Source: Eucommia ulmoides
Lineage: Eukaryota > Streptophyta > Magnoliopsida > Garryales > Eucommiaceae
Assembly (NCBI GenBank): GCA_016647705.1
Contig: CM028330.1
Location: 29,902,649 to 29,966,648, forward strand
DNA length: 64,000 bases
Direction: 5' to 3'
The translations under genes were made by a program, and so were the position numbers. The notes beneath the pieces were generated by a model. It saw nothing but the letters and a program-made list of their open reading frames with translations, was not told the DNA's origin and did not search any database. Shown piece after piece: positions 533 to 34,649 of the stretch. Positions within the stretch are counted from its first letter, which is position 1, and the number at the start of each line of letters is the position of its first letter.

Positions 533-1015
533 TTCTTAGAATCACCAGCCCAGAAATACGTTTGACCTGATCCTTGGTAGATCACCAAGGTACGGAAGCA
601 ACCCAAGCGAGTTTGGTCAAAACAAAAAAAAAAAAAAAAGATAGAGGTATCAACGTCACGATATTCTCTTAGCCCTATGCTAGGGAACACCTTTGGAACA
701 ATTCTTTGACACATTCTCTGTTATCCAAAAAAATAAGAAATACCTAAGCCCGAAACTATATTTGACTAATCCTTGGTAGATCACCAATGTACGTAGAAAA
801 CCCAAGTGAGTTCGGTAAAAAAAAAAAAAAAAAAAGAGGTATCTGCTTCACGATATTCTCTCTAGCCTATACCAGGGCACACCTTAGGAATAGTCTTTTG
901 ACACATTCCTTGCTATTCAAACATATAGTGAATACTAGGGTAATAACTATGCATGACTTGATCCTTGGCAACACTGCCAAGGTACGTAGGAAACCTATTA
1001 AGGTTCGGTCATTCA
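533..1015 (+). repeat. Three copies of the ~70-bp hairpin repeat
   Basis: Copies near 533-612, 748-825 and 940-1015. The stem-loops read CCTTGGT-agatc-ACCAAGG in the first and CCTTGGCA-acac-TGCCAAGG in the third; the longer stem of the third keeps perfect pairing with different letters. Poly-A runs of 16-19 bases follow the first two copies. Confidence 0.75.
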
Positions 1016-1544
1016 ACTGTATGAACTCCTCTAGAAACAAGCTAAAGAGCATTCTTACAGTTTCCATCATCATACATAGATTGAATTTCGACTAGAAATC
1101 CAAAATTCTTTATGATTAGAAGGAGCGAAGGTTAAAAACTAATAGAAACCTAGCAAACTTGCATAACAAGCAATGACTTCTGATTATCTACGTTCTTCCT
1201 TCATCTCTAACCAAATAGTCGAGAGAACAAGCAACATAGGAAAAAAGGAAAATGAAGAGAAATATTGTCCAACCCTAAACAATCAACAATTCAGTAGTAC
1301 CATCCTACCTCAAGTAGTCAACGATTCAGGAAGTACCATACTACGCTAGATAGTTGGAGAATCTACCATACCATCCTACCTCAAATAATCAAAGGTTCTA
1401 CCATACCATCATACCTTTACGATAACTTACGATACGGATAAGCGAAAGTGGATTTCGAAACCAGTTTTATACGCCTAGAGATCACTGAACCAACGGTACA
1501 CAATACCTCAAATTCCCATGACTCTCACCTCCAAGAATACGGCA

Positions 1545-1555
1545 TTATTAGATAC
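1545..1555. repeat. Left target-site duplication of the Mutator-like element
   Basis: TTATTAGATAC, matching TTATCAGATAC at 22980-22990 with one difference. The TIRs begin directly inside these copies. Confidence 0.7.
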
Positions 1556-2603
1556 GAGTTGTTTACACAAATAATATATTTAAAAAAAAAAAAAAAGTGA
1601 AAAACATGTGTAAATCAACTTTAATACCAAACTTATGTTACCCCGGCGTTTAAAACACCGAGACCAAGGTCCCAATGTTCCGAACACCAGAACCTATTTA
1701 ATTTTTCATTTATTTATTTTCATGGTCTCAACATTCACAACGCCGGGACCTGATTAATTTTTTTTTCATGGTCCCAGCGTTCACAACGCCAAGACCTTTT
1801 AAATTACAAATGATGTATCACCGTTTGTTCAAAATGGTGATACACCATTTAGGTTGGTCAAATGGTAAATTTGTACCATTTGACCAACTAGCTTTGCAAT
1901 CTGCAAAGCTTTGCAGCTTGGTCAGTTTGACCTAGCTGGTCTCGGTACTGAGAACGTTGGGACCTCACCCTATATACCTACCCCATTTTGAGTTAAATTT
2001 GCCTCTTCCTCTATACTTCTTGTTGGCAGTGTCAGTTTATCAAATTTCACAATTTCACAGCTTCTTTCTCCTACTATAAAAGTAAGTTTAATTTATTTGT
2101 TAGTTTGATTACTATGTTTTCTACTTGTTTAATTATTTACTTAGTCTGTTTCTTAGTTAGTTAGTTTACTTATTTAATTTATTAATTAGTTGGTTAATTT
2201 AATTTGTTAGTTTAGTTGTTTAATTTTTTATTTTAGTTGTTTAATTAAAAACTATGCACTTTGGCCCCTCAAAGTATGCGTAAATTATACATGTGTGAGA
2301 AATTATAAATAGAAATATATTATAATATATTATTTTTTTAAAAAAAAATTAGTTAGTTAGTTACTTAATTTGAGTTTAATTTGTTAATTTAGTTGTTTAA
2401 TTAAAAAAATGTGCACTTTGGCCCCTCAAAGTTTGACAAATTACACTTGTGGAAAAATAGAAATTGAAATAGAAATTATAATAGATTGTTTTAAAAAAAT
2501 TGTTAGTTAGTTAATTAGTTTAAATTTTAAATTTTAAATTTAGTTGTTTAATTAAAAAATGTGCAGTTTGGTCCCTCAAGGTTTGATAAATTACACATGT
2601 CGG

Positions 2604-2677
<74 letters not shown>

Positions 2678-2990
2678 GTATTGTTTAAAAAAAAATTAGT
2701 TAGTTAGTTAGTTTAATTCATTAATTTAGTTGTTCAATTAAAACATGTACACTTCGGCCCTAAAAAAATATTAGTTAGTTAATTAATTTAATTTAATTAT
2801 TAGTTAGTTTATTTTTTTAATGTGTTAGGAAAAACTATTTTATTATTTTTTTTAAAATATATTTTAGTCTTTTAATATTTTAAAATGAATTTTAGTATTT
2901 CAATTAAAATCAAATTAATTGAATCTATCGAATTGAAACTAACTTGACATCGAATTTATATTCCATTGAAAATTAAAGTTAATTAAATTA
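1556..2990 (+). repeat. Left long terminal inverted repeat of the Mutator-like element
   Basis: Nearly 1.45 kb that reappears in reverse complement at 19415-22979. Shared landmarks are a block about the words ccggcgtttaaaacaccg (near 1643), gatgtatcaccgtttgttc (near 1811), a gccctatatacctaccc region with a possible TATA box near 1969, four units of a repeat with the word ggcccctcaaagt (near 2260, 2417, 2570, 2755) and an inner block near 2870-2990. The AT microsatellite at 2607-2674 is a local expansion. Confidence 0.8.
2607..2674. repeat. (AT)n microsatellite
   Basis: About 34 AT units inside the left TIR, replacing a shorter tract between two of the ggcccctcaaag repeat units. Confidence 0.95.
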
Positions 2991-3031
2991 TTGACTAAAT
3001 TAAAAACAAATAAGATGAAAATGATTGAAAA

Positions 3032-3466
3032 ATGTACACAGTGAGAGATATGTATCGTTCAATAGGACGTCATTGTCTTTTGGAAGACGAATTCTCATAC
3101 TCTTTAGATCCAAGAGTTCGTTACTCTTAACGGTGGGTTGCAAGGATGCAGAAAGAATACACTTATCATGTCAACCAAGTAAAGATTATGGTTGACGAAT
3201 GCAGACAATATAATATTCCAATAGTGCGTCAATTGGCCAGAACAATGTCAATAGACACGTCGCATAACCTTCAGATGGCATTGCATCGCTACCGTGAAGA
3301 AAATAACCTAATGAGAATTTGAATTTTTTGACACAAGCTTGAAATGATGGCACGTGAACGTCTTGAAAAAGGTTTGGTTGTTGAAGTACGTACTTACATG
3401 AGATGCACAAGAAAACCTCAATATCAGTCAAATATTAAAATGTCTGATGATGAGAGTAATGTTTAA
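3032..3466 (+). pseudogene. Unidentified ORF A of the Mutator-like element (decayed)
   Basis: One 145-codon frame from an ATG at 3032 to TAA at 3464-3466, just inside the left TIR. It begins MYTVRDMYRSIGRHCLLEDE and includes a helical, charged stretch (RWVARMQKEYTYHVNQVKIM, then RQLARTMSIDTSHNLQMALH) and the tail KMSDDESNV. Three in-frame stops (codons 33, 101 and 104 or so) show that it is no longer translated in full, yet the frame is otherwise kept over the whole length, which argues for a real former gene or exon. I do not recognise the family. Its place between TIR and the next ORF, on the same strand, suggests an element-encoded accessory protein or an exon of a larger gene with ORF B. 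Confidence 0.5.
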
Positions 3467-3746
3467 TGTTTTCGCATTGATGAATTATAGTTGAACTATG
3501 TATTTCCTTTGAAGCCTAATGTATCGTTTTTACGTTAAATTATAATAATGATAATCCTACCAAATAGCTGACTTTCTCTCTTTCAATTGATAGGTGGTGT
3601 TGGTTAGTTTTTTTTAGTTAAGCCCCGTGTACTTAAGTTCTAAAATATCATTTTTTAGTAATTATGCTATAAAAAAAATAAAATTGTAAACTCGTAATGT
3701 GTAGTATAATATTTGTAAATAAACAATTCTGCCTATAATTTTCGTG

Positions 3747-6245
3747 ATGTCTTCACATATTAATTCAAGTGAAGAAAACTCATTTGGTTTTTCAAGTGAG
3801 GACGACTCATATGGTGCTTGGGGTTGGCCTAGACCCTGGGATCAACAAAGATGTTGGGTTCTACAACCATATTATGACGACTACTAGAGTGATCAAGGCA
3901 CCAACCCGATAGACTATCGCGTCGGTCTACGCCAAGAATAGGAATACAGGGTGAATGAGAGTAACTGTAACGTCCTAGTTTCCCAAGGCCGCCACTGCGG
4001 TTTCTCCTATAGAGAATTCTACCCAAATAGTTCACCATTTATAAATAATTTACTATTATTATTATTTCCGCCGAACAACCAATATTTTGTTCTATAAATC
4101 CAATATATTTTATCAACTAGTGCGATATTTTTAATTTATATTTCACAAATCCAACAAATTAATAAATATAACTATTACAAGTTTAAATAGAAATTCTACT
4201 ACAATTTTATTATAATCGATGATGATAATTTTACCAAATAATCCATATTTTAATTAATAGAAATCTGATAAATTTTATAATGCGACGGTGATAATTATAA
4301 TAGTCGATTTCACCGATTATAACAGTAAATAATAATTACAATTTTTATAAATAGAAATTCAACTCCCGGAGCCGATTCGTCCTCACCGGCCCTGCAATCA
4401 AAACTGTGGGGTTGTGAGCCAACGCTCAGTAGAACTCCAACCCCTCTAATACGTGCATTTAATTAATACGACACGTAAAACACATTGACATGTTTTTCAC
4501 ATTGTCCAAATTATTTCATATAATTTAACTGGTAAAATTCCACAAAAATTTACCATAAATCACACAATGAGAAAATTAAATACATATGTTAAAAAAGTTC
4601 GAAATTCTACCTGTTCCGAATCTTTTGCCAGTCACGAGATAGGTTTTTGGTTTTTATTTGGGTTGGTTTTTTTTTTTTTTTTTCCCTTTTTTAATTTTTT
4701 TTTCTTCTTTTTTTTGCGTTTTTTGTTTCTGTTTTGAGGTCTCGCCGCCGCTAACGTTCTCTTTTTCACTAACTCTTACTCTCATTCCAATGATCACTAT
4801 ACCCACACTACCGGCACTGGACAACGCACACACACACCGACGATCCACACACACACATTGCCAACGAACGTACAACAAACACCTACCCACGAAATCGACA
4901 ACACCCACATACTCACCGGCTGACAGCACCTACTCCACTGATGACACATCCACGGGCCGATCAATACACACACACACAGAGCACATACACTGCCAAAAAA
5001 ATTAGGCAACACACACACACGATGATGTCGACGGCACCCCACCGGCCGAAACTCTCTCTCTCCTCACCAACTTCGGCGACCTCACCCCACGACGCAACAC
5101 ATACGGTCGGCGACGAGCAGGCACCACTGAAGAATAACCACCGACGATGAAACGATCAACTGACCGCTCACCATACCGTCGGACGAACGACAACACCACA
5201 CACCCACCGACACCGCCGACGATTGACAACCTACACACATACTCGCGACTCTCACACATACACGTATCCATGCCGCACACACTGTCGGTAGGACCTCTCC
5301 ACACCCCGTCAACCAACAACCACGATCGACGTACACACACACTCACGATCACCATATGAACAACCCACACCAACACCGTAGCAATTTGAACATACATACC
5401 CACGGCGCTCACACGAATAGCAACGATCAACCGATCGTAACGCTCACCGCCTCTATCGGCAGACCAAATAACACCACACACACACTTGAATGCCAATCCC
5501 CTGCACCTCACCGTCGACGAACACACCACCCCATATGATTGCCGACCACACACACCGCCTGCATACCGCCGGCGCCAAAACCCACTTCTCTCTCTCTCAT
5601 TCTCTTTTCAGTTTCTATTTTCCCTTCTATTTTTCCTCTGTGTGTGGGTGTGGATGTATATATATGTGTGTGTGTGTGTGCGTGTACACGAATCCCTCCG
5701 ACCGAACACGCGTCCCTCTCCCCTTTCGTTTTGATCTCTAATATATATATATAACGTTTTCCTTCATTAGGAAGGCAAAGGAAAAAATATTTATTTAAAT
5801 TACACTAATCCCCCTCAATTTTCTTTTAGTTATTAGTTAAACCCGAAATCTAAAATTAATATTTTGAAAATTGCAAATAAACCCCTAAAATTTTAAATTA
5901 AATAATAAATAACACAATCTACCCCGTTTTTTCTAAATGTGCCAAAATACAGCTTAAATTGTGCGTATAAAAAAGTTTGGGTCTTACAGTAACAACTTTG
6001 TATCTTGTATGAGAGATCTTAATGCACCAGTTCCATATCGTTGATGTCTTCTGAGGCCTAGACGATGTATAATTGATGACACAACCGAGATTGAAGATGC
6101 AGTTACACAAATTCGCCTAGAGAATAATCGAATGTTGTTGTGCATGAATAGAAATTATCTACTACAACTAGCCAACGAAATGGCTACTGCAAGCAACAGA
6201 GCACTCTCTCCAAATGAATACCATAACGTGATAAAGAACAATTAA
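3747..6245 (+). pseudogene. Unidentified ORF B of the Mutator-like element, split by a solo LTR
   Basis: The frame opens with MSSHINSSEENSFGFSSEDD at 3747 and continues SYGAWGWPRPWDQQRCWVLQ, acidic and aromatic. A solo LTR (3966-5988 plus its TSD) interrupts it; the same frame resumes at 5994 and ends ..NRALSPNEYHNVIKNN at 6243-6245, after a glutamine and asparagine rich helical part (IEDAVTQIRLENNRMLLCMN). Three in-frame stops are present outside the LTR. Total length without the LTR is about 157 codons. The family is not recognised; an element-encoded protein of a PMD-bearing Mutator-like transposon is the simplest reading. The conserved frame on both sides of the LTR shows that the LTR landed in a coding exon. 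Confidence 0.5.
3966..5988 (-). mobile_element. Solo LTR, chromovirus-type family (Del/Tekay-like)
   Basis: Bounded by TSD GTAAC (3961-3965 and 5989-5993). Read on the plus strand it begins TGTAACGTCC and ends GGTCTTACA, so the LTR itself lies on the minus strand as TGTAAGAC...TTACA. It contains a poly-T tract near 4668-4690, long CA-rich and TG-rich stretches (4800-5690) and no coding sequence. Same family as the LTRs at 16452-19348, 28849-31360, 35216-37800 and 60268-63459, judged by the shared start and the shared internal blocks. It inserted into ORF B of the Mutator-like element. Confidence 0.85.
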
Positions 6246-6775
6246 TTTTTGTCTATGGGGTACATGTCCAATGAAAAATAAAGAATTGTTTGCAGTTCAA
6301 TTGTCTTTTTAAGTGTTTTCTTGTCACTATTTTCATGATGTTATGTACTGTATTTCTTATGTATTGTCTTTGTTATGAGTTTCATAACAAACACTGTTAA
6401 TCATGTTTCTAATTTATGTAATTTTTTTCCTTGTTTTTATAATTAATTGTACTTGTTAACGTGTTTAATTTCAATATGATGTTTATGATTATTTTAAGTT
6501 GTTTTGCCTTTAATATTATACTCTTTCAATGTGCTCCATAATATATTAGGTGAAATAAATGAAATTATCCATTAGTTAAGTGATGTTTCAATTGATAGGT
6601 GTTGGTGTTTGTTATGTATTTTCTTCGTTACACCTTGTCTATATCATGTCTGCTTAAGAAAAATAATCTTTCAAATTGACGATGAATAAATATGTATATA
6701 CTAGTCTCCAAGATGGAGTAAAAAATACAACAAACGTGTATAATGATGTACATTGATATGTATTTACAAAGAAAG
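6246..6775. other. AT-rich spacer, nothing recognised
   Basis: Between ORF B and the central fold-back of the Mutator-like element. Low-complexity AT-rich DNA with no frame, repeat or RNA gene that I can support. Confidence 0.6.
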
Positions 6776-7045
6776 TTGTTGATCTACCGTGTATATTGCT
6801 TTGAAATGGATAAAGAATTTGAATGGGAGATCGATCAAGGTGTTTAAGATTCCGAAGAAATTGTTAAAAAGCATACAGAGTGGAAAGTGGTTGAAAATAT
6901 ATATATATATATATGCTCAACCACTTTCCACTCTGTATGTCTTTTAACAATTTCTCTGGAATCTTAGACACCTTCTCGATCTCCCATTCAAATTCTTTAT
7001 CCATTTGCGAAGCAATATATACGGTAGATCAACAACTTTCTAAAT
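6776..7045. repeat. Central fold-back (inverted repeat, ~120-bp arms)
   Basis: The left arm (about 6776-6897) starts agaaagttgttgatctaccg and contains cagagtggaaagtggttg; the right arm (about 6917-7045) is its reverse complement with some ten mismatches, and the spacer is a short (TA)n run. Both arms read as the same short peptide-like stretch (for example KEFEWEI), so it looks like the 3' end of a gene duplicated in inverse orientation. It sits between the plus-strand ORFs and the minus-strand PMD gene. Confidence 0.85.
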
Positions 7046-7380
7046 CTACACGCGTTACAAAAAAATGTATTTACTAACTATGTACATTCCTATATAACTA
7101 TGTAGAGAAAAAAAAAAGTATTTACATTCCTATTGGTAAACTTTCAACTATATAATTATGTACCACAACCCCTACGTCGGACGTTCCTTCACCCTCGACG
7201 TTGAGTAATAGAAGGTTCCTCAACCTTATCATGAACTTGTATAACTTGTCCAAACTCCATAAACGACTATTGCATCATCCCCAGGGTGGCATCCACGTCG
7301 TCCCCGAACCATGGCACCGGTGACACTTGTCTTTCCAATCTTGTGGATTGGATAAATGCCATCGGAAGAATCATGCCTGA

Positions 7381-8911
7381 TGCTAGGTGTAAAATACATA
7401 TCTAATTCTAAACCGAATTTGCCAGTTTTTGAGTACTTTATTGAAGTTTGAATATCGTTTTAGCTGTTTTTATTAGTCAGGAGCAGGGAAGTAAACAATC
7501 GGCAAACCGAGCGAAATGGTGCAAAAAGGGTAGCAAAAAAGATGAAAAAAAAAATGAGGTTTCAAATAACAGAGCAATTCCGCCTAGGCGAAGTTTCCAC
7601 CGCCTAGGATAAAATTTAGCAGAAAGATGCAAAAACTGAAGATTTGAAATCCGCCTAGGCGAAGTTTCCACCGCCTAGGAGAAAATCCATCAGAACGCTG
7701 GATGAACTGAACTGCTGCATAGAGCTGCACTGCTGTAAATCCGCCTAGGCGAAGTAGCTACCGCCTAGGCGGAATTCCGTCAAAAAGATAAGGAGCCAAG
7801 AAGTTAGTCCTCCGCCTAAGCGAAGATTCTACCACTTAGGCAGAATTCTAACCGACTTAACATCCGCCTAAGCTAAGTTTCTACCGCTTAGGCGGAAATC
7901 GCAGAACAGGTCCAAATATCTGTTTAGATATTTTTAAACCCCTAGGCCTATAAATACCCCTTGGCCACGTCTGAAACTTGTAGTGGAAGAACCCAAACCC
8001 TAGAAGAAAGATCTTAAGTTATATTTTGAAGATCAAGAAGGAGGTTCATCATTCGGATAACGAGGGATAACTTGCAGATCGATCATTAGTGACAGTAAAC
8101 CGTTTCACTTCCAGATTTGATCGTTTCTCTCTTGTTTTATTCTTTGTAATCACTTTTTCATATCTAAGAATGTTGAATCCCTCTTATTTTTCATGGTATA
8201 TGGCTAAGATCTTGTAGTAGTAGTTAAATGTTACTTAGGAGTAGTCGAAATCATGTAACCGTTTAGTTGAGTAAATTTATGTTACTTTAACGTGTTGTTT
8301 GTCTAAATCCAATTGTGTTTATTGTTATTCTTGATATTATGCTTGTATTGATAAATCGAGAATACAGGGTTTGACACTTGGGAGAGGTAACCCCGGCTTC
8401 AGACTAGGGTAAATACAACGTGGGAGGGCGTTAGAATGTATGCAACCCATGACGTTGGCTCAAAACTCACGCAACCTAGGGTCGTTAAGGCATTGAAGGG
8501 GACTTATTTGTTGACACGAAGTCGTGTAATCCCTCGTTTTACACTCGGAAGAGGTAGCGGAGGAGTTATTGATATAGAGGTTGTCGGATTAGATAAAAAC
8601 CATTATAGCTAACTAAATGAAATCGATTATGTAGTATATGAAAGAAATTTATACCTAAGTAATTAGTGTAATTAAAACTAACTTTATAGTTGTCATTTAT
8701 ATTAGTATAGTAATCAGAAAACAAACAAAATTTGATTAGTCGAGATAATATGAAACTATTGAAATCGCAATACTCAACCGAATTACCTGCCCTTCTGAGT
8801 GGAACGATATCCGATACTAAAATATCCATTATATTAAAACTAGACCTTGTACACTTGTGAGTAGTCCAATTACCGCGAGGAGGAAACATGGTGTGAATCT
8901 AAGCGCGTACA
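7381..8911 (+). mobile_element. Solo LTR, Athila-like family
   Basis: Bounded by TSD CCTGA (7376-7380 and 8912-8916). It begins TGCTAGGTGTAAAATAC and ends GCGCGTACA. The U3 part carries an array of CCGCCTAGGCGG-like palindromes (7561-7895), a TATA box TATAAATA at 7949-7956, and a leader block with the word gggtcgttaa near 8480. Related to the LTRs at 12369, 39871, 42988 and 55179 by the same order of landmarks, but one of the more divergent copies. It lies inside the PMD gene remnant. No coding sequence. Confidence 0.85.
7561..7895. promoter_or_regulatory. Array of CCGCCTAGGCGG-like palindromic words in U3
   Basis: About ten words, alternately spaced by aagtttccac-like linkers, upstream of the TATA box. 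The perfect form CCGCCTAGGCGG appears near 7761; others are near-palindromes such as CCGCTTAGGCGG. Function unknown. Confidence 0.6.
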
Positions 8912-11665: not shown

Positions 11666-11681
11666 AAACTACACTATATAC

Positions 11682-11928
11682 CCCGGATCGTTGCATATGC
11701 ATAATTATTAGCTGCATATTTTAACATCTAGGAAATAATGGGGTAAAATGTGTCATTCCTAATTTGATTTAAAATTTTAGGGATTAATTAGAAATTTCCA
11801 AAATATTAATTTTAGGTTTGGGTTTAATTAATAACTTAACAAGAATTGAGAAGAGAGATTTATGTAATTAAAACTAAAATAATAATATATATAAACAAAT
11901 GTGTAAATGATTTCATCCCACTACTGTA

Positions 11929-11980
<52 letters not shown>

Positions 11981-14900
11981 ATACGCTTCGAGAGAGTTCA
12001 AGAGAAAAGAAAAAAAATGGGAACACGAGGAAGTAGGTTAGCGTGGGGTGTGATCGTCACCTTTATCGTTGCCAGAGTGGTGTGTTCCTCCAGAAGGATG
12101 TGGGCGTGAGCGTCGTGTATGGGTGTGATCGGTGGAAGTGTATGCGGTTCATCTGCTCTGTTCGGTGGTGTATGTGTGTATGTTGTTTGCTGTTTTGTTA
12201 TCGTCGTGGGTGTGTAGGTGACGATGACTGTGTGTGGGATTTGTCTGGTATGTGCGATGTGCATGTGTGCCGTCGACATTGCGTGGGTGTGTGGGTAGTG
12301 TCGTTGGCCAGCTGACAGAGGGGGTACTTCGATCCGCCGTTCAACGTGTGTTTCGGTGTGTGTACTGTTGATAGGTGTGAAAAATCTATCTATTTCCAAT
12401 CCGAATTTGTTAGTTTTCTAATATGTTTATAGCTATTTTTATTATGTTTTAATTAGTTTTCATATTTTTTGTATAACTCAGGTGTGTGGGGAAAAAAGAT
12501 AAGAAACTGGAGCTAAAATGATGAGATCGAACCAAAGCGGTTCGAAGTTACAGTGGATAAACAAGCTCGGAGGCTAAAAGATGAAACAGGCCCACCGCTT
12601 AGGCGTCCAAACCACCGCCTAAGCGGTGAAGATGCTGAGAAGAGCAAAATGTTACTGACGGACGCTCGCCTAGGCGAAGATTCTATCGCCTAGGCGGAAA
12701 TCCAGCAAAGGATGCAGAAGGGCTACTGACAGCCGCTTGCCTAGGTGAAGTTTCCTTTACCTAGGCGGAATTTCAATAGAATGTTCTCCCAGTCCATCGC
12801 CTACTTCACCACCTAGGCGATCAGACCGAACAGACCGAACTCCGCCTAGGCACAATTTCCACCGCCTAGGCAGATTTGCCCTGCACAGTCTTCAGATATT
12901 TTTAGATATTTTTAGGATATTTTTGCTATAAATATCCCCTCTCCTCCCCCTTGGCCAAAGACTCTCTTGCCCCCGTGGATTTTTGATCCCCTTAGGCTAT
13001 ATCCAAGGGTATAGTTAGGGATTTTAGTGGTGGAGCTCGTATCCCGAAGTAGTGAAGACGGCGAATCAATCGTAGAGCGTTCTTAGCGATTTATCTTCGG
13101 ACGAGGCTAAGTTCTTCGATTGTTTTTCCTTATTTCTTTATCTTAGGAGTATGTGAGCATGTTTAGCTCGTTATTTTCTTGTATATGCAACTATGGCCTC
13201 GAGTTAAATATGGATTGTAGTAGGGATTAACACTATATTTATAATATGTTGTTTGGATGATTTCGGTGTGTTGTTTGTAATTGTTCTTCGTATTTTGATT
13301 GTATTTATTGTATTATTTGTTTATTATGTTTGGATTGATAAATGGAGAATACGAGGTTTTGACAAACCCCGGATTCGGATTAAGGTAAACAAACGCCACG
13401 ATTCTATAACCTGGTCGGGGTTTAAATCGTAGACAATCGATGACGTGGGGCAAGACACACGCTACCTAGGGTCGTTAAGACGTTGAGGGGGACCTCTTCG
13501 TTGACTCGAAGTTGCGTTGTATCCCTCGTTTTACACTCGGAAGAGGTGGCGAGGGAGTTTTAGAATGGAGATTGTCGATAGGGTAAATACAACGCGACGA
13601 TCGAATAACCCAGGAGGGAGTTGGATTATGTGCAATCAATGACGCTGGGCGAGAATCACGTGACCTAGGGTCGTTAAGACGTTGAGGGGGACTTCTATGT
13701 TGACTCGAAGTCATATATTCTCCCGTCTTACACTCGAAAGAGGTGGCAGTGGAGTTTACATACCGAGGTTGTAAAATAGATCGAACAATATAAACGCGAG
13801 TAAATCGGAATCGAACACGTATTTGTAAACACGTTAATCCCTAGGCAATTCTTCACCCTAAAACATATTAGCATATTAGTGTAGTTAATTTAGGTTATAT
13901 TAGTTTTAGTTTAATTAATTAATTACATTTGTTTTCGCCTAGATAAAATTAGGTCACGACAAATGCGGTATTCGATAGTAACGACAACAATCCCTGTGGT
14001 TATGATAACCCGATCTTAACGATCACACTATACTAAAACTTAGACCTCGTATACTTGCGAGAGTAAGTAGCGGTGTATTTTACACCCTATCAACTGTATG
14101 TGTGTGTTGTTCAGTGATCATCGTCGTCCATCATTCGTAGGGGGTGAGGGAGTCGTCGGTGGTGTGGGTGGTCGTCGGCTGTGTCGTTGGGTCGCTGGCA
14201 AAGTGTGTATGTATGTGTATGCCATCGTGTGCTGTTATGTGTTTGGGTATGCCGTTTGTTTGGTTGTTTCTCTATCTAGTGTGCATATTTTGGTGTATGT
14301 GGCCTGTTTATGGCCTTCCGTTCATTCCTGTTAGTGGGTGTATGTCGTCGTCGGTTAGTTTGGCCAGCGGTGAGTGAGAGTTAGAGAGAGAAAGCTTGTC
14401 GACGACGAGAATTTTAAAATAGAAACAGAAACGCAGAGTGGGCGGGTGATCGTTGGTGTAGGTTGGCCGGTGGTGGTGAGGAGAGCCGTTGGTGTAAGTT
14501 AGCCAACGGTGGTGAAAGGAGAGAGAGGAGCGTGTGGTCTGGACCAGGAACAGGAAACAGCGTAATCGCGGGGAAGAAGGAGAAAAAGGAAAAAAAAATT
14601 TACATAAACAACCCCAATAAAATCCAAAATCCATCTCGCGGCCGACAGATGATTCGGAGCAAGTAAAAATCTAAATCGACTACTATTTCGGTTAAATGGA
14701 ATTATTAGCGAATAGGATTATAATTTTGGAATCGTTAATTCTAATAAATGTTGTCACCGTCTATATTAACAAATACGTACAGTAATTATCAACGAAGCGA
14801 AATTAACCGAATAATAATTTTTCATAATAAAATGTGGGGACGGGAAAATTGTGAAACTTAGGGCTTGCATTGCATGAATAGGTTATTTTAAATAGATTAT

Positions 14901-15057: not shown

Positions 15058-15059
15058 GA

Positions 15060-22979: not shown

Positions 22980-22990
22980 TTATCAGATAC
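22980..22990. repeat. Right target-site duplication of the Mutator-like element
   Basis: TTATCAGATAC; partner of 1545-1555. Confidence 0.7.
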
Positions 22991-24359: not shown

Positions 24360-26830
24360 TTTAGGAACTATGCGTCAACCTGATTCCCGACAGCGTCCAA
24401 GATACATAGAAAACCCTCGTGGGTTTGGTTAACAAAGTTGGACTCACCAAAAGACTTAGGAACTATGTGTCAGCCTAATTCTCGAAAACACCGAGGATAC
24501 CTAGGAAACTCTCACGGGTTTGGTTGACAAATTCAAACTCATCAAAGCCGTAATAACTACGTGTCAGCAATAAAAAACCCTCGTGGGTTCAATTAACAAG
24601 TCTAAACTCATCAAAGATGCAGGAACTATGTGTCAGCTTAATTCCATCAATGTTTAGGATATGTATGAGACCTCATGAGTTCGGTTGACAAAATCCCAAC
24701 TATATACGATGAACTATGTGCCGACCTGATTCTCAGTTATATGAGATATGTAGGCAACCTTTACTACGTTCGATCAAGTCCTTTAAGCTACAAACTATTT
24801 ATGCGCATTGAACTTGGTGTCAATCAAATTCCCTGTGCAAAACAAGAATACCTAGTAGCATTTTGACCAAATCCTTAGTACAACACCAAGGAACGAAATA
24901 AAATGAGGGACGAGTATAATCCTTATGATGCTCTCTCAGCCCTAAACTAGGGCCCATATCTAGTCCGTTAACTTTCCTAAGAAAAGATATATGTGTTCTC
25001 CTTGTTCTCCAAACAATAGACGATGCTCAAATTAGGAAACTATGTCAAATTTGACTCCTAACAAAACTTGGGATAGGCACAAAACCTTCTCCAGCCACCA
25101 TTGACAAAAATCCCAATTCAATCGAGACTGAATCATGCCATCAACAATAAAAATCCTCATGAAGTTGCGTCAAACCATACGACCCCCCATAGAGCTTCTC
25201 AATGACGAATCCCCCAATCAATTGGGATTGAACCATACTAAACATGACAATGACCTACCAATTCGGAGCTGACCATACTAGAATAACCTAGCCAAGGAAG
25301 AACTAGATGCTGACTAGAGTCATGGTAAACTCCAAGATGCATGAAACCTTTACAAGTTGGGTTGTCACCTTAAACAAAATTTCTCTATCCCCAACAAACT
25401 ACGCCTCGAACTGTCTTTGGTAGAATACCAAGGTATATAGGAGACATATGCTGGTCCGGTCAAAACTAGAGAGACGTCAGCAATCACGATATTTTCTCAG
25501 CCCTGTTTTAGGAGGCATCTCCTGAGAAATCCCTTAACTATCTTGGAATCTAAATACCAATCCTTTTGTTAAGAAGACAACAAAGAATGCCTATGCTCGA
25601 ACTACGCGTCCACCTGAACCTTGGTAGATCACCAAGATACGTAGGAAGCCCTTGCGGGTATAGTTAACAATCTGAGATATCACAGTGAGGGCCGAGCTAC
25701 ATTTTAACTAAATTCTGGACCTAGGAACTCAGTGTATGTAGGTAACCCAGGTGGGTTTCAGTCATTTGACAATTATCATCTAGAACAACAATACATGAAT
25801 AACCCAATGGGGGTTTCCGAACTAAAACAAACACTATAAATTGCACGCTCAGTTCCGAAAATAGAAGTGACCTATATGGGCTCTACCGCATCCACTAAAT
25901 GATCAAAAGATATTCCCGCAGCCCAGCTTGTGCTGGGGCACATTATATTTGGTTTCTTTATTAAGAATCTGTGATGGGACTCACCCCAACTAGAGCTGGG
26001 GAACATTATATCCGATTTCTCCATTGAAACTTCGGAATAAGAGTCACCCCAGCTATAGCTGAGGCACATTATATCAAATCCTCTCTTTGTAGAGTTTTTT
26101 GATATAAGACTTGTACCAATCCCAATCATAATCAATGCAAAATATTCAAAATTTTAAACTATAATCCCAATAAATGAATATGTATCATCAAGTCCCAGTC
26201 TACTATGGGGCACATTTTACTTGGGGTTAAATTTTCCCCAGGAAGTTTTCTAATCCTCGTTAAGAAATCCTAGGTGGGATGTAGCCAAGAAATTCCTCTA
26301 AGTGTTGACTTCCTTGAGGCTTTTCACCCGTTGTTAATTCTCTTAGTCATTTTCAATCTTTTATTGATATGACAACCTAGGATTTAGTTTCCCTAACCAA
26401 GAACCTATTCCACCAAATATAGATAAACTTTACGAGTGTAAACTACATTTGACCTAATTCTCAGTTAAGTCTGAGATATGTAAATGCCCCGATGGAGTTC
26501 GGTCAAGCCACCACAAAGATCAATCGTCGACCTTAGTCTCACACTAACCAAACACCCCAGAATTGGCTTCTCTAACACAAAACCATTCCACCCATTCTTT
26601 ATTTACTTTACCTGTTAGAACTATATGTGACCTGATTCTCATTAATTTGAGATATATAGGTAAAACCTTTAGAGTATGGTTACAACCAGTAGCTAGTTGT
26701 ATTTTATGGTTTCTAGAAAATAATATAGTGTAGTAGCAAAATTTACTTTACATGCCAGAACAACGTATGAACTGATCCTCATTAATTTGAGATATATAGG
26801 AAAACCCTTTGGGGTACGTTCACAACCGGT
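24360..26830 (+). repeat. Dispersed hairpin repeats, about 12-13 copies
   Basis: Each copy is about 70 bp: gaactatgtg..cctgatt, a stem-loop of 12-20 bases, then gatacgtaggaaaccc..gggttcggt. Copies near 24363, 24458, 24545, 24616, 24708, 25040, 25400, 25590, 25690, 26440, 26605 and 26750. Stems differ: CTCG/CGAG (near 24485), CTCA/TGAG (24732), CTTTGGTA/TACCAAGG (25408), TCTCAG/CTGAGA (26459) and TCTCA/TGAGA (26637). Intervening sequence is unrelated and variable. Confidence 0.8.
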
Positions 26831-27420
26831 AGCGAATTAACCGAGTATCATCCTCCTCACAAACAAAAGCCGATTTGATCGATCATCATCCTCCTCACAA
26901 ACAGGAGCCGATTGATCAGGCTTTATCCTCCCCACTACCTATTAGATTTGACCGACTATCATTCTCCTCAAAAAAAGGATCCAGTTGATTGATTATCATC
27001 CTCCTCACAAATAGGAGTCGATTGATCAGGTGCCATCCTTCCTCACAAATAGGTTTTGATTTGTCTAAGTATCCTCCTCCTCTCACATAGAAGCTAATGC
27101 GTCTAAGTATCATCCTTTTCATAAACAGGAGTCGGTTCGTCTAAGTATCGCCCTCCTCACAAATAGAAGCCGATTCATCTAAGTATCATCCTTTTCACAA
27201 TCAAGAGTCGGTTCATCTAAGTATTGCTCTCCTCACAAACAGGAGCCGATTCATCCAAGTATCGTCCTCCTCACAAACAGAGCTGATTAATCTAAGTATC
27301 ATCCTCTTCACAAACAGGAGCTGATTTGTCCAAGTATCATCCTCCTCACAAACAGGAGCCGATTTGTCAAAGTATCGTTCTCCTCACAAACAGGAGCCGA
27401 TTTATCAAAGTGTCGTCTTC
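26830..27420 (+). repeat. ~38-bp minisatellite with a CTCCT/AGGAG hairpin
   Basis: About 15 degenerate copies of catcctcctcacaaacagga plus gccgatttgtcaaagtat. The part CTCCT-cacaaac-AGGAG can fold; one variant reads CTTTT-cacaatc-AAGAG (near 27190), with both sides changed. Copies vary in length from about 35 to 41 bp. Confidence 0.85.
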
Positions 27421-28848
27421 ACCACGCCCTATAGGATTAGATATATCACCATCCTCCAGGAATGAAAATAGATAGGAGCCAGATGCATTACCATCCTACT
27501 AAAAATAGTCTCTAAAGGTTGATTGTTCGTCAATCATTCGAAGTAAACAATGGTAGAATTGATCAATCGTCATCCTCATTGAAACCTCTAGGAGCAAGTA
27601 TATTTCCATCCTTCAGTATAGATTTAAATACTTGTCTTTAGATTCCATGTCTAGAGGAACAAAATGTTTGTGTCTCCTTCTTTGTCATTACGAGTAAACT
27701 CACATAATAGAGAGGGGCAGCTATAAACACTACATTTTGTCTTGCCCAGTCAGTGTCAAATCAAGTATAAGCTCATATAAACTTCAAACTAAAATTTAAA
27801 GAGAATAAATTTCTAACTGAGATCACAATAGGAAATATCCAAAAACAACCAAAAAATATGACAAAAATGCAAAAATATTGAATTTGACAAAATACAGTTG
27901 AGTAAAAGTTTTTGGTTAAACTCGAAATCCATATGACTTAAGGAGGTCTAAAATGAATTTAATAAGGTTTGATTTTCATCAAATCATATTTATCATAGGT
28001 AAATATTAGTGTCTACCCTTAAAACATAGGACATTTCAAACAATTAACTCAATTACCCCACCCCGACTTTGAAATATTTACTTTTCACTGAATATTGTCA
28101 AATTTAACAGCAAAAATATTTATTTCCCTCGTGCATACCACATAAAATACCACAAATAAAAAATCCAAGACACATTAATCAAGGTTTGTAAAGGTCGTGA
28201 TAAAGCCAAAAATCGCAAAGTGATTTAAGGTGTAGGCTTGACTTGGATTTTCACTAAATTCAAATAGTCTTGACAAACCACCCTAGGCCCAAACAATCAA
28301 GGGGCTTAGCCAATATTTAAGGCCCAAAAACTAAGACATATAATGACCAAGAAGACTTCCTAGAAGTTGCCTACCCAAATGGCAAAGGAAGAGGACAAGA
28401 CACTTAGGGCACAACCAATTGTTATCGAAACCAAACCGATTCAGTTCGCCACCTAAGTAAGACATTCAATGAGCATTGAATGTCCATCCCATCAAGAATT
28501 AAATTCTTAGGATGACATGTCAAGACCAAAATCAAGGTAAGCAGATATTTTAAGCAAAATATCTTAGAAACTAACCGAAAGCCTTGAATCGTGACGACCC
28601 GTTACTGAAACCAAACTGATTGAGTAACCTCTAAGAAAAGAATTTAATGCACATACCATCAAGAATTAAATTATTAGGATGACATGGCATGGCTAGGTTC
28701 AAATGATTTAGATATTTTCACAAACATATCAAAGGCAAACTAGGCAACTTGGAAACCAACCGACGGTTACAAGAAAAATTCACCGGATTCCATCCAAGTC
28801 ATGACTCATCAATTTGCATTAAATGTAAAGTGAAACCTAAGGAATAGG

Positions 28849-31360
28849 TGTCACAACCCGTCCCGGAACCCCCGTCATCCTGAGGCTGGCGTGACTACAA
28901 CATGACATCACCAATACCCAAATAACCAAATAAATGACAATATACACCCACTGTATAATACAAACATCTACTATGGAGGACACACCCGTCTCGAAATTTT
29001 ACCAACTAAAAGTATTTATCCATGAACCTTTTATAGGTTTGCCTTTGACAACTTCTCTCAATCGCCTATATGACTCCATCACATAGCTCAACCTAGTGCT
29101 AGTAGGGGACCGACTCCTAGCTGTTGTACCTGCGAGTGTACTGCCTTCTTAGTAAAATATTTTTATAGTAATTATAAGTTATTCTGCAATATCTAAATAG
29201 ATCAAGCTTAAATATGCAAACATTACATAGCTCGCAAAAGTTTTCATAATATTAGCAGTAAGAATAAAACACTATATATAAGTTTCATGCAAAATCATTT
29301 AGTATAAGAATCATGCCAATCACCATGATAAGTAATAAATCACCCAGTATAAGCAAAATATCACATCTCAAAATATTATCTCAAACACACACACGCTAGC
29401 CAGCCCTAGTGATCGTTTTAACCTCACGATCGAGAGTTTGTAACGGTACCGTACCATCCGTAGGATATGCCTTCCTACGAACACCCATTACTCCGCCGAA
29501 GCGGATAATCACTGCGCAGTATAAATATCTAACATCACTCTACCGAAGCAGATAAACATCACTCCGCCGAAGCGGATAACATCACTCTACCGAAATAAAT
29601 AAATACTATGGCATCGTTAAATAAAATACAACATCATTAAATCACAACCCAATAAATATCATCTACTCAACATCGTCAAATCACCACGTCTATCTCTTTT
29701 CCCCAAAATCAACTTTTAAATTCAAGAATCATATTTTACACTTCCTTTTAAAGAAAACGTCTGATTTTTATCAAAACCACCTTTTATTTTTAGAAACCCA
29801 GACATTTTTAGCAAAACAGATGTTTTCTATTTTCTTTTAAAAACACCGTCTGATTTCACCAAATTAAAAAAAATCATTTTCAACTTCGTTTCAAAACCAT
29901 CGAAATCTTTCAAAAATCCAGTTTACCAACTCACCCAAATCCTGCTTGATCCATATTATTTATAGATTCATACAGTTTAAGTAACCACATATTTCATCAT
30001 ATATATACATAGCAAAATAGTTTGGCAAGAAGACAGTACACTCACCTCGATATCCGTTTTGCAAAACTGACACTGACCGCACTCTATCTGGACGCTAGTA
30101 CATGCGAACCTAATAGTGGCAGAGTCTAAATTAATATCTTATCTAAAACATCCTAATCATGCAATGCAGACCCTATATTCCAAATCGTTACTAATTTTAT
30201 GTACCACGTACTTAAAATTAATTAATCGTCACGAAATTATTATGATTTAGGATTTGTAACACTAACTAAAATTTAATTTAACGAGAATTAATAATCGATT
30301 GAAGTTTCACCTGTTTCCGAAACGTTTGGCGACCACGAGATGGGTTTTGGATTTTCCTGGGGTGGTTTATGCAAATTTTTCTTTTTTTTTTTTTTTTTTT
30401 TTCGCTTCTTCTTCCTTGTCTGCGCCTACGTCCGGTTTTGGAGATCGGCCGCCGAACACTGCTCCGACCACCAGACTCCCACAACCTCACACCACCGGAC
30501 CTCTAAAAATAACACACACACACAAACTCCCGATCACCGCCACCACTGTCGGCCAAACTCACGCCGCCGAAGCCGATGGCACCCCCCCTCTCTCTCTCCA
30601 TTCTCTACTCCGGAGATGACCACCAATACTGACTATATACACACAGAAAACACACACACACACCCCTGATCACGTACCCAGAACTGAACACTTACCTACA
30701 CAATCGGAACTCATACACCCACTCACTGGCGATAACACCGTGACGATCGCCGATCATCCTTGCCGTCTGCACACACACATACACACCGACGTCACTAAAG
30801 AACACACACACACAGTTTACATGCACCAAATACGACTGATCGGCCAACCGAAATAACACCCACCGGCGATCCCTCTCTTTCTTCGTTTTTCTTTTTTCCG
30901 TACCGGCGATCTCTCTCTCTCTACGGTTTGCTATTTTATTTTTTTTTCTGATTTTTGCTCCACCTCTCCTTCCCGTATGTATGCATGAATATATATATAT
31001 ATATGCACGAACGATCAGCCGCGTGTCTCTCCATCTCTCCATTTGATTACACGTCGTCGTCAATATGAGAATTTGCGCTACCGTCATTCGTATGAACATG
31101 GATCCTGATGAGATGATGAACATGGACCCTGATGAGATGATGTCATCTCTTCTTTATTATTGTTTTATTTAAATTACCCAAGTTCCCCCTCAATTTTTGT
31201 TAAGTTAATAATTAAACCCAAATTTCTAATTTTACTAGTTTGAACATTACAAATTAACCCTTAAAATTTTAAATCAAATAATAATTAGTGCCCTTTACCC
31301 CGTTTTTTTTTTTTTTTAAATATTATAAAATACGATTTCAATAAAAGCCAGTGTCTTACA
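28849..31360 (-). mobile_element. Solo LTR, chromovirus-type family
   Basis: Begins TGTCACAACCC and ends GTGTCTTACA on the plus strand, flanked by ATAGG (28844-28848) and CTAGG (31361-31365), one mismatch in five. It shares with 16452-19348 the inverted word ACGATC..GATCGT (near 29410-29440), the tacgg-taccgt block, the cctagtgctagtaggggacc block (near 29093) and the CA-rich region (30500-30800). It also holds a hairpin array (29500-29610) and a (TA)n run near 30991. Non-coding. It split the left Tat/Ogre-like LTR. Confidence 0.88.
29500..29610 (-). repeat. Hairpin array with CCGC-TTCG-GCGG stem-loops
   Basis: Four copies of catcactccgccgaagcgga plus taa (plus strand). On the LTR's own strand each reads TCCGCTTCGGCGGA, a stem closed by the C-TTCG-G tetraloop known for high stability in RNA. 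Confidence 0.8.
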
Positions 31361-31730
31361 CTAGGTTCAACGCATCTTGGCAGCATTTATGACAACCAAG
31401 CCGAAATAGTGGATCTAATCGACGTTTAGCCCCTAAAGCGAACCGAATCCATCCCATCAAGTCATAAATGCACCCATGTGTAAGGAATGCCATTGGTGGA
31501 GAGGTAATGATTGGAAAACGTTGGCAATCATTGGTATTGATTGCCAATGATTACCAAATTTTTTAAAAGATTTGGTAACCATTACTAAATATTTGAGAAT
31601 CTAGCCTTCTCTCCTAAATTCGTTCCAAGCCAAATTAAACAAATACAAGATCGCAAGTACCCTAGACAAAAAAACAATCCAAGGAAGAGGCTAGGATTAC
31701 CTGTGCATTGCCCAATGTGTAGGCCCCCAG

Positions 31731-31740
31731 CCTATAAATA
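31731..31740 (+). promoter_or_regulatory. TATA box of the left Tat/Ogre-like LTR
   Basis: cctataaata followed by ggggtgccctcttctc, a typical plant LTR promoter core. The right arm has the matching box on the minus strand at 37917-37926. Confidence 0.6.
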
Positions 31741-32679
31741 GGGGTGCCCTCTTCTCATTTTTCTCAAGATTTGAATGCCTAACTTCTCTCCCTAAACTCA
31801 AGCACATCTCTCGGGCCCGAGGCCTCTCAAGAGAAATTCTAAAAAACACATCGTTATTCTATTGAAATCTAGTCGTGAAAGGAATTCTTGAAGTTCTTAG
31901 ACAAGAATTTTAATGTTCGACAATCACCAATCAACACTGAGCTAAGGAGTAGAGGAGGAAGGCTACTTAGGGACGACTCCATCCCCCATGTAGGTTATTG
32001 TTCTTGGGTTCTTGGCTACGAACTCAAAGAATGGCGACCATCGATCAAGGCAAAAGAGGTAAACACTTAGGGATGACCACATTCCATAAGTAGGTATGTT
32101 TCTACAAAACCTCATATGATTCTTAGTTGATTTTGTTCATATTGTCTTGTATGTAGTAGGATCTTGTAAATAATATACTTGATTTAATGCTCTTAACCCA
32201 TAAAAATCAAACAAGCCCTAAGAACAACCTAACAAGCATTTGATTTTGTCAAGAACATCAAGCAAACACCTAATCTCAACCATAACAACCAAATTAGGGT
32301 TAAATAATACAAAAAACATTCAAGAGTATTGAAAACATTCCAAGACATTGAAAAACATCAACTCAGCCAACCACATGGTAAAAACGTGTGCGGATTCGAG
32401 CAAAATGACTATTCACACCATGAGTTGTACATAGTCTATGTGATTTTCCCCAAGAACATCATATTTCTTTTTAACATTTTAACTCACAACTCACACACAA
32501 ATACTAAATTAATCAAAGCAAAGAAGTTCGTTTGAGGTACTTGGCAAAATCAAATGTTTGTTTTAAGGTTGTAATTTATGTTTGTTCAACCAAAACTAAC
32601 TGATAATCAACCAAAAACTTAACTAAACTAACTCAGATTTAAACCAAAACCAACCCAACTTTCCAAACATAATAGGACT

Positions 32680-32960
32680 GAACTACATCAACCTGGTCTT
32701 TGGTAACCACCCTAAGTACGTAGGCAGCCCATAAGGGTTAGGTCACACCACTAATAATGAATCCAATTTTCAATGAGACAAGACTGAACTATGTCCGACC
32801 TGATCTTTGGTTACCACCCAAAGTATATAGGCAACCCATAAGAATTTGGTCACACATCTAATAATAGACCGTGTGCTTTCCCAAACCAGAATGAACTACG
32901 TGATGACCTGATTCTCATTTGAGACACGTAGGCAACTCACATGCGGGTTCGGTCACATAT
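32680..32960 (+). repeat. Three hairpin repeats in the left LTR
   Basis: Copies near 32680, 32780 and 32890, with loops CTTTGGT..ACCCTAAG, CTTTGG-ttacca-CCCAAAG and TCTC-attt-GAGA, each followed by gtagg-aaccc and a gggttcggtcaca-like tail. Confidence 0.8.
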
Positions 32961-33389
32961 CCAAACAACTTAGTCTTAGTTTGCATTTCATTTAGTGTAG
33001 CATGCATATTTACATATCTGTGTATATATAAACTGTTATTGGGTATCGTTGACTAGTTTTAGTTGTAGTATTTACCTGTTTTCCATTAAATCATGTCAAA
33101 AATACATTAAAAGAACAAAAACTCTAAAAAATAGAATTATTCTTGTTTAAGTAATCAAAGAAAACCACTTGGATAGTGTTTAACAGTGAATATCTATTTT
33201 GACTAAGGTACCATCTTCGGACTGGTGTCCTGGATTGTCTAACACCTTACCAAAGCATAATCGACTCCCAAATATAAAGAATATATTTGGTACAAAGACC
33301 TATGGAAGTTAAAACATGAGCCATTTCAAAACGAAAAATGAATTTTCAAAATCCCAGTGACCTAGCACACCATTTAACCCCATGCTAGG

Positions 33390-33589
33390 TGGTGATTCTG
33401 TTATTAACAAAATATCTCAGCCCAAGATATTTTTCAAAACCAACGCAATGAATGGATTTGGACGACTTAGAGAAGAAGGGATAAAACTTATTTTCATCCT
33501 CTTCCCGAGTCTCTACTTCTTCCGCTATCGAACTCTAGAGTGCGTCAAACTTCTTGGGCCGAGATTTTATATTGAAAATAAAGTCTCCA
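33390..33589. other. Junction between the two head-to-head LTRs, with two facing primer-binding-like sites
   Basis: tggtgattctg at 33390 (plus) and tggagactt on the minus strand at 33589 both resemble the tggcgactctg primer-binding sequence of Tat/Ogre elements (tRNA-Arg type). Between them lie about 100 bp of leader from each side, recognisable by the ctcggcccaaga-like word on both strands (33418 and 33552). No coding sequence. Confidence 0.5.
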
Positions 33590-34014
33590 CCTAGCATAGG
33601 GTTAAATGGTGTTCTAAGTCACTAGGATTTTAGAAATTTATTTTTCATTTTTAAAAGGCCTTTTTTTTTACTTCCAAAAGTTTGTGTACTAGAGATATTC
33701 TTTATGTTCGGGAGTCGATTATGCTCGAGGTAGATTTTACGCGCCCCAAGACACTCATCCATAAACGGTACCTTGGTCTAAATAATTATTCACTATTAAA
33801 AACTATCCAAGAAGTTTCCTTTGATTTACTTAAACAAGAATAATTTATTTTTTAAAAATTTTCCTTTTTTTATGTATTTTAACATGATGTAATGATAAAA
33901 CTAGTAAATACAACAGCTAATACTAATCAGCAACACCCAATAATAGTTTATAATATACAGAAATATAAATATGCAAACAATAATAAATGAAATAAACATG
34001 TTTTTCATTTTTTA

Positions 34015-34190
34015 TGAGACCGAACCTTATACAGGTCGCCTACATATCTCAAATTAATTAGAATCAGGTCCTCACGTAGTTTGTTTATGTAAGGGTGAAA
34101 CTAATTTTATTATTATTGGTGATTGAACACTTATGTAGGTTGCCTACATACTTTGGAGGATAACCAAAGATCAGTTCATTGAGTAGTTCA
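34015..34190 (-). repeat. Two hairpin repeats, minus strand
   Basis: Counterparts of those at 32680-32960. On the minus strand they read ctgatt..gagatatgtaggcgacc and actgatctttggttatcctc plus caaagtatgtaggcaacc. Confidence 0.8.

Positions 34191-34615: not shown

Positions 34616-34649
<34 letters not shown>

Follow-up and report, generated by a model that had tools for sequence, protein, structure and literature searches.

The repeat and its predicted fold

The DNA studied here, a window of 64,000 nucleotides from Eucommia ulmoides (contig CM028330.1, positions 29,902,649 to 29,966,648), contains arrays of a repeat unit of roughly 65 letters in what appears to be a Tat/Ogre-like long terminal repeat (LTR) retrotransposon, and the unit is present in thousands of copies genome-wide. 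Comparison of the copies shows it to be a module with the predicted ability to form four helices, P1, PK, P2 and P4. We consider it likely that this module is a selected, cis-acting RNA fold in the 3′ region of the element, an assessment that refers to the fold and not to the exonuclease step considered in the Discussion.

P1 is formed by CTACGT near the 5′ end and ACGTAG after P2; in PK, GACC pairs with GGTC close to the 3′ end, and one flanking pair is added. P2 is a variable hairpin that had been described in the initial annotation of this DNA, and P4 is a second hairpin (ACCC..GGGT). The two hairpins are enclosed by PK as a three-way junction, and P1 crosses PK as a pseudoknot, the segment 5′ of PK pairing with the linker between P2 and P4. 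As judged from the aligned letters, support is strong for P2, fair for P4, where one pair varies, and moderate for P1 and PK. Among the unpaired positions, the GAA before P1 (66, 90 and 96%) and the TGAT after the PK arm (83, 71, 91 and 79%) are fairly conserved. Of three typed class sequences, two had the PK+P2+P4 junction as their minimum-energy fold by RNAfold. RNAalifold does not handle pseudoknots; it recovered P2 and P4 from a MAFFT alignment of 44 copies hand-thinned from 80 (alignment A2), and paired other flank letters.

The flanks of P2 had been annotated as constant. They are not: they pair mutually and differ together between classes, and a lone hairpin with fixed flanks was rejected on these grounds. 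A simple DNA cruciform was also rejected, because the crossing helices P1 and PK cannot coexist in one. Hence a single-stranded nucleic acid, most simply RNA, explains the repeat better than a cruciform. The proposal that selection had acted on RNA (or cruciform) structure can thus be kept for an RNA-type fold, now with four helices, and dropped for the cruciform.

Number of copies

The pattern GAACTAN{9,12}TGATN{14,34}AGGCAACC gave 2,600 exact matches in the 947-Mb genome and its reversed control one. Exact matches to two further patterns, TACGTAGGNARCCN{2,16}GGGTTCGGTC and CTACGTN{2,5}ACCTGATN{8,25}TACGTAGG, numbered 550 and 774, and their reversed forms gave none. The window and 38 further loci (L001-L038) were scanned with position weights for four anchor blocks, the spacers between them being free. 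Distinct copies numbered 172 at a threshold of 20 bits and 142 at 40 bits, where shuffled windows score up to ∼23 bits under the trained weights; copies below 40 bits were excluded from the 142-copy analyses. A larger set of 210 copies was obtained from 245 by excluding copies below 40 bits and identical motifs, and takes in most of 60 fetched places, themselves from the 100 listed of the 2,600 pattern matches. The scan scores the letters of P1 and PK, and is therefore biased against detecting changes in these two helices. Start-to-start spacing was 80-115 nt in 82 of 95 cases (neighbouring copies at 40 bits or more, less than 400 nt apart).

In the window, a covariance model built from A2 (R1; PK, P2 and P4 modelled, P1 omitted) found 19 copies at E ≤ 6.2e-5, 5 of which are among the 44 training rows of the model; 25 matches were obtained at E ≤ 5, and the six weaker ones (E 0.25-4.6) were excluded from the count. 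The copies lie at 551-1015, 24363-26826 and 32678-32959 on the forward strand and at 34013-34191 on the reverse strand, as had been annotated, and the phenomenon extends beyond what was noted then.

Compensation between classes

The 210 copies were grouped by similarity and the majority letters of each group were taken; five groups had at least four copies. In the four largest classes (n = 77, 51, 42 and 29), 6/6 P1 pairs and 4/4 P4 pairs were Watson-Crick, as were 5/5 PK pairs except for one G-U, and 5-6 P2 pairs were formed. The letters differed from class to class. P1 was CTACGT/ACGTAG or CTACAT/ATGTAG; PK was TGACC/GGTCA, CGACC/GGTCG or CAGCC/GGTTG; the 5′ arm of P2 read CTTTGG, TCTCA, TCCTTG or TCCCGG; and P4 was ACCC/GGGT or ACCT/AGGT. 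A finer cut into ten classes gave Watson-Crick cells in 55/60 (P1), 44/50 (PK), 54/60 (P2) and 38/40 (P4), against 17/60, 12/50, 19/60 and 25/40 in the best slid register, and a third cut into 11 classes gave 62/66, 48/55, 60/66 and 40/44. One pair varied in type in P1, two in PK and one in P4, and all six positions did so in P2; the support for P1, PK and P4 hence comes from few pairs. In the class with n = 42, ACGT was lost from both P1 arms and pairing was retained, which argues that selection did not act on ACGT as a protein-binding site.

The changes in P2 were the most extensive. Five fully Watson-Crick 5-bp stems each occurred in at least three of the 210 copies; if these stems share one ancestor, at least four compensated changes are needed on any tree. 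Five consecutive Watson-Crick pairs were present in 74/210 copies, whereas 15.3 were expected, and at most 28 were seen in 1,000 re-deals of the 3′ arms among the 209 long-enough copies. The compensatory stem changes that prompted this analysis were supported. Among the 100 listed of the 774 matches mentioned above, P2 pairs 1-5 also exceeded re-dealt arms (z 5.3-8.6); pair 6 did not (0.8).

Covariation tests

A covariation test against a shuffled null, as the initial annotation had proposed, gave a divided answer. In A2, 91.0% of the cells of the named structure were paired (shuffled mean 86.2%), and 83 cells carried double changes (34.8 in shuffles); in neither case was any of 500 shuffles as high. 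Slid registers of A2 were 16.8-43.8% paired, a comparison that favours the structure, because the A2 rows are well-kept copies from which the structure was drawn. The other part of the answer is given with the adverse results below.

A Pagel-type dependence test with control column pairs was then carried out on an IQ-TREE tree. With 142 copies, the likelihood ratio (LR) was 17.2, 20.2, 19.8 and 12.1 for P2 pairs 1, 2, 3 and 5, and 15.9 for the closing pair of P4; the 110 control pairs had a 95% point of 10.0 and a maximum of 12.6. Controls as high numbered 0, 0, 0, 10 and 1 for P2 pairs 1-5 and 3 for the P1 pair G7-C2; none was as high as the closing pair of P4. With 210 copies (170 of 493 possible controls; eight pairs too conserved to test), G7-C2 reached an LR of 19.8, with 1/170 controls as high, and 9, 3, 1, 47, 6 and 119 controls were as high as P2 pairs 1-6. 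Furthermore, G7-C2 was Watson-Crick in 64 cases where 50.8 were expected (p 0.0005) among the 100 listed of the 2,600 matches, which are partly the same genome places as the other copy sets. In an R-scape-like simulation, five P2 pairs took ranks 1, 2, 5, 6 and 7 of 2,701.

A number of results weigh against a selected fold, or against some of its helices. In A2, neither the number of pairs in which both sides had changed (10, with 9.6 in shuffles; 261/500 shuffles as high) nor that of further pair types (27, with 25.6; 101/500) was raised, and these are the two measures least prone to false alarms. The tree test lacks direction, and its controls reached an LR of 20.6 with 210 copies, where the P4 closing pair and P2 pair 1 each had 9/170 controls as high. 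PK was weak with 142 copies (2, 37 and 30 of 110 controls as high) and with 210 (8, 32, 64 and 74 of 170, from the outside in), and its outermost position was Watson-Crick in only 56/207. P1 pair C6-G3 (44/110 and 111/170) and P2 pair 4 (10/110 and 47/170) were also weak; among the 100 listed of the 2,600 matches, C6-G3 was not raised (60, with 61.7 expected). In the R-scape-like simulation, whose simulated null is fat-tailed, no pair reached E < 0.05. The fifth class (n = 8) kept P1, and parts of its PK, P2 and P4 were broken; small classes broke P1. By RNAfold, the third class sequence took a different fold, as did window 32890-32956 alone (z = -1.08). Nearest independent pairs of copies showed no excess of compensation, the ratio of pairing-preserving to pairing-breaking changes being 33:42 for P2, 17:34 for P1, 24:37 for PK and, below the controls (1430:2007), 4:19 for P4. 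Finally, over 20 pairs and 210 copies, G-U mismatches (334) were as frequent as C-A mismatches (347; p = 0.65), and the same was seen among the 100 listed of the 774 matches (33 and 41).

Most copies look old and decayed, which blurs the pairs. We think that the nearest-pairs test is dominated by decay after insertion, with siblings each losing a different arm, and the controls lean likewise. The absence of compensation in nearest pairs, as expected of decaying copies, suggests that the compensations are old, and the near equality of G-U and C-A indicates that there is no sense-RNA wobble preference and that decay sets the present mismatches. Both absences are consistent with neutral decay of dead copies, and neither adds support to the fold. 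The possibility had been raised at the outset that stem classes track the phylogeny of whole-element copies, with no independent changes. This was true in part, since the classes track sub-families and array position and nearest pairs show no excess; against it stand the five recurrent Watson-Crick stems and the tree test, which favours several pairs over controls.

Position of the arrays in the host element

The initial annotation placed copies in two settings, ahead of the polypurine tract and within the LTR; both placements were upheld. The 3′ LTR of the left element spans 27722-33547 (forward strand) and is apparently interrupted by an insert at ∼28.8-31.4 kb. Its left edge was set by comparing loci L043 and L044 with the window, and its right end is the point where homology between loci with different flanks ceases, with a common end like GTGCGTCA. 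A AGAGAGGGGCAG run at 27709-27720 (forward strand), which resembles a polypurine tract and may serve as one, adjoins the LTR start. Three tandem copies lie in this LTR at 32678-32749, 32784-32856 and 32891-32959 (R1 E 1.8e-11, 2.2e-12 and 9.6e-15), and a TATA-box-like TATATATAAAC, a putative promoter element, follows the last of them after 67 nt (33023-33033, forward strand). The other array (24.3-26.8 kb), assigned to the 3′ untranslated region (UTR), precedes 38-bp tandem repeats at 26844-27411 (forward strand; Tandem Repeats Finder, period 38, 15.1 copies, 72% matches) that lie between the motif region and the polypurine tract. These 38-bp repeats are a possible satellite seed.

The same arrangement was seen elsewhere. 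In 14/14 LTRs with a recognisable end the array was on the strand of the LTR, with two to four copies upstream of the end, and scans of the loci concerned gave no opposite-strand copies, the window apart, where a second LTR faces the first. The last copy lay 520-683 nt before the LTR end (one row of L011, where another LTR end lies at 1,139 nt, was set aside). A TATA-like box matching a fixed expression followed it after 56-71 nt in 10/14 LTRs; of the remaining four, three have a related sequence by eye, TATAAAC or TATATAC. The TATA-like box after the last copy places the LTR array in U3. Transcripts of both arrays would then lie close to the 3′ end of the genomic RNA. Two loci depart from this picture: L009 has three copies on each strand within 1465-2500, and at L010 (1280-1535) an array directly follows an LTR end and a stretch like a primer-binding site, unlike the LTRs just described, perhaps in a rearranged copy.

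In the 3′ UTR region, four tandem copies at 24363-24435, 24458-24530, 24621-24691 and 24709-24780 (forward strand; R1) have homologous arrays at other genome loci, many of them spaced 94-95 nt. Four more lie at 25298-25368, 25394-25466, 25597-25670 and 25692-25768 (forward strand; E 1.8e-6, 1.1e-6, 2.6e-10 and 6.2e-5). The distal end of the region holds copies at 26438-26509, 26616-26686 and 26756-26826 (forward strand; R1), and L043 has a similar copy ahead of the 3′ LTR (4547-4610). Several window copies are damaged, for example 25692-25768, in which the stem base is broken, and a truncated copy within the first array, near 24552-24599 (E 0.25). Apart from these, three copies lie at 551-623, 751-822 and 942-1015 (forward strand; E 2.8e-11, 2.5e-8 and 1e-13). 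A second hairpin type is interleaved with the repeat copies (670-691, 863-885 and 25935-26230); its arms, like CCCAGC/GCTGGG or GCCCT/AGGGC, are followed by CACATT or CACACC and co-vary by eye.

The two reverse-strand copies, 34013-34084 and 34116-34191 (E 4.4e-14 and 1.2e-11), belong to a second LTR copy at 33548-39469 (reverse strand), recognised by homology to the first and apparently interrupted at ∼35.2-37.8 kb. They are homologous to the plus copies of the first LTR, which the second mirrors over ∼1.4 kb: the two LTR copies stand tail to tail, forming a 1.4-kb inverted repeat with 73% identity (32767-34208), and ∼140 bases appear to be missing from the end of the right copy. The interrupting stretches of the facing LTRs contain a direct repeat with 70% identity (28842-29321 and 35207-35712), and related DNA may have been inserted into both.

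Nature of the host element

Tat/Ogre elements are very long, their polyprotein has a gypsy reverse transcriptase (RT) and an extra archaeal-type RNase H, and Ogre elements are linked with a tRNA-Arg primer. We scored 13 LTR ends, excluding the window's own. After four of them, first picked by eye, 13-17 of the next 18 letters are complementary to a tRNA-Arg(ACG) gene of this genome, and after the other nine 5-9 of 18 are. We read the four as probable 5′ LTRs and the nine as 3′ LTRs. tRNA-Arg is named among non-chromovirus primers (PMC6317226). One LTR pair (L043/L044) is 15.5 kb apart, its members being 76-81% identical in three pieces. In 7 kb of the interior, 9/10 open reading frames (ORFs) of at least 80 amino acids are on the opposite strand, and nested DNA may add to the length of the element. 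Among the ORF pieces near the arrays none could be assigned as pol or Gag of the element. L039 has a gypsy-type RT, but array and RT are on different strands; at L042 a Retrotrans_gag piece shares the strand of the array and is kilobases distant from it; L047 and L049 have Copia domains. The Tat/Ogre-like identity proposed in the initial annotation thus gains support from the tRNA-Arg-type primer site, the 15.5-kb LTR spacing and the 3′ tandem repeats, with which such a host would agree, and no pol has been tied to it.

Elsewhere, a Retrotrans_gag fragment is present at window 46184-46699 (reverse strand; Pfam, E 3.9e-8), and two 1.7-kb copies of another repeat, with 88% identity, lie at 12369-14081 and 55179-56874. 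Between two C3 LTRs and on the strand opposite to them, L045 4935-5258 (forward strand) has a weak match to the plant mobile domain (E 0.0027, below the cut-off), a domain reported in 57% of Ogre elements (PMC6317226).

Searches for relatives of the repeat

No Rfam 15 family was found at or above gathering in the window, and at E ≤ 5 four loci gave three chance-like matches (E 1.2-2.5), none of them ribozymes. In a viral contig collection two motif patterns had no match and a further pattern matched one contig; in a genome contig collection one motif pattern had no match. A looser pattern found at least 118 stretches in the latter, and the 80 listed were all bacterial or archaeal. R1, run on 81 of these loci (80 genome and one viral), gave five matches, the best (E 0.0039) being a bacterial hairpin with neither PK nor P1, and we read all five as chance. 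No paper describing a structured motif in the LTRs or 3′ UTRs of Tat/Ogre elements was among those listed by our literature search; subscription journals were mostly outside it, so that absence from print is unproven. The word "hairpin" does not occur in PMC6317226 or PMC7004042.

Discussion

Two observations lead us to infer that the module acts at the RNA level. A simple DNA cruciform cannot accommodate P1 and PK at once, and the arrays are sense-oriented in the 3′ UTR and U3 of the LTR retrotransposon, which puts them close to the 3′ end of the genomic RNA. With its conserved crossing fold, fairly conserved unpaired letters, tandem arrangement and place in the 3′ region, the repeat most resembles RNA modules that act by shape. 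Class 1 exoribonuclease-resistant RNAs (xrRNAs) combine a three-way junction with a pseudoknot made by a 5′ segment into the junction. The repeat is like the flaviviral class 1 xrRNAs and the plant-virus xrRNAD in its predicted compact pseudoknotted fold in an RNA 3′ region. Class 1a xrRNAs have a three-way junction and are mostly found in tandem in mosquito-borne flaviviruses (PMC8571300), and xrRNAD covaries in its stems and pseudoknot (PMC6299227). In the repeat, P1 crosses PK(P2)(P4) in the class majorities, with moderate support for P1 and PK, whereas the second pseudoknot of class 1 xrRNAs, from a hairpin loop to downstream sequence, was not noticed in an inspection by eye. Moreover, xrRNAs are viral and the repeat belongs to a retrotransposon, and the likeness implies no kinship.

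Most likely, then, the tandem modules would act in cis as compact tertiary folds. By analogy with tandem xrRNAs in viral 3′ UTRs, they might block a 5′-to-3′ exoribonuclease and so protect or trim the 3′ part of the element RNA, a step that we regard as possible and hold only tentatively. About equally likely, and ranked with it ahead of DNA roles and of no function, is that the same selected fold binds a protein: Gag, in packaging, or else an export adaptor or factors of translation. The copies are modular and in tandem, and with their fairly conserved unpaired GAA and TGAT they look like repeated docking sites, which could plausibly be located at the 3′ end of a genomic RNA; on the other side, there is no known protein partner and no Gag could be tied to the element. 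It is doubtful, yet conceivable, that the repeats form a new and very abundant class of tandem pseudoknotted plant-retrotransposon RNAs which stop 5′-to-3′ exonucleases, or have an equally specific tertiary function, and which would have evolved independently of viral xrRNAs.

A role at the DNA level, as a repeated U3 enhancer or a cruciform upstream of the TATA box, for example with ACGT-core bZIP sites, seems unlikely. The LTR array does lie just upstream of a TATA-like box, most classes have ACGT cores, and G-U and C-A mismatches are equally frequent; however, 11/19 window copies belong to the 3′ UTR region and so are kilobases away from the LTR promoter, the class with n = 42 pairs in the absence of both ACGT cores, and the crossing of P1 and PK argues against a simple cruciform. 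Slightly less probable still is that the repeats arose by replication slippage and recombination and have no selected function, their classes being inherited with sub-families. Tat-lineage 3′ UTRs are described as hypervariable tandem-repeat regions (PMC7004042), and neither recent compensation nor raised A2 pair-type counts were found, but the classes differ in their letters and still preserve the pairing of four helices, to an extent well beyond that in slid registers, and paired and double-change cells in A2 exceed shuffles. The Tat/Ogre repeats occupy the same place downstream of gag-pol and are likewise tandem and variable; they are described as tandem repeats and as a source of satellites (PMC7004042), whereas here the unit is a conserved fold common to 3′ UTR and LTR.

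Structured RNA motifs inside plant LTR elements are exemplified by the retrozymes, which carry hammerhead ribozymes; the repeat is like them in this respect, and unlike them in having no hammerhead match in Rfam (the window and four loci). For a self-cleaving ribozyme of another kind, the order of strands in the repeat (P1 5′, PK 5′, hairpin, P1 3′, hairpin, PK 3′) matches that of the hepatitis delta virus (HDV) ribozyme (P1, P2, P3 hairpin, P1′, P4 hairpin, P2′), and is like the nested double pseudoknot of the HDV-like ribozymes of the retrotransposons R2 and L1Tc. That mobile elements carry such ribozymes is documented (PMC3774820). We nevertheless regard a ribozyme as very improbable. There was no HDV-type match in Rfam (the window at gathering; four loci at E ≤ 5), the single linker letter at the position of the catalytic C (J4/2) is C in only ∼62% of copies, and a conserved L3/P1.1-like region is lacking, the hairpin loops differing between classes. 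In R2 ribozymes the region of one hairpin shows high conservation (PMC3774820), and the corresponding hairpin of the repeat is its most variable part. The repeat lies in 3′ UTR and U3, unlike HDV-like retrotransposon ribozymes, which are at the 5′ end, and cleavage near the 3′ end would presumably damage the genomic RNA. Topology alone is common to the two; the other hallmarks examined fail.

Structured cis-acting RNAs have been studied in viruses and in yeast elements. Here a defined fold of ∼65 nt with a predicted pseudoknot recurs thousands of times in one plant genome and is missing from Rfam. The repeat offers a concrete, compensable target for mutation tests. If an exonuclease block or the binding of a defined protein proved true, it would open a way to study the protection, export or packaging of RNA by large plant elements, and would provide a ready tool.

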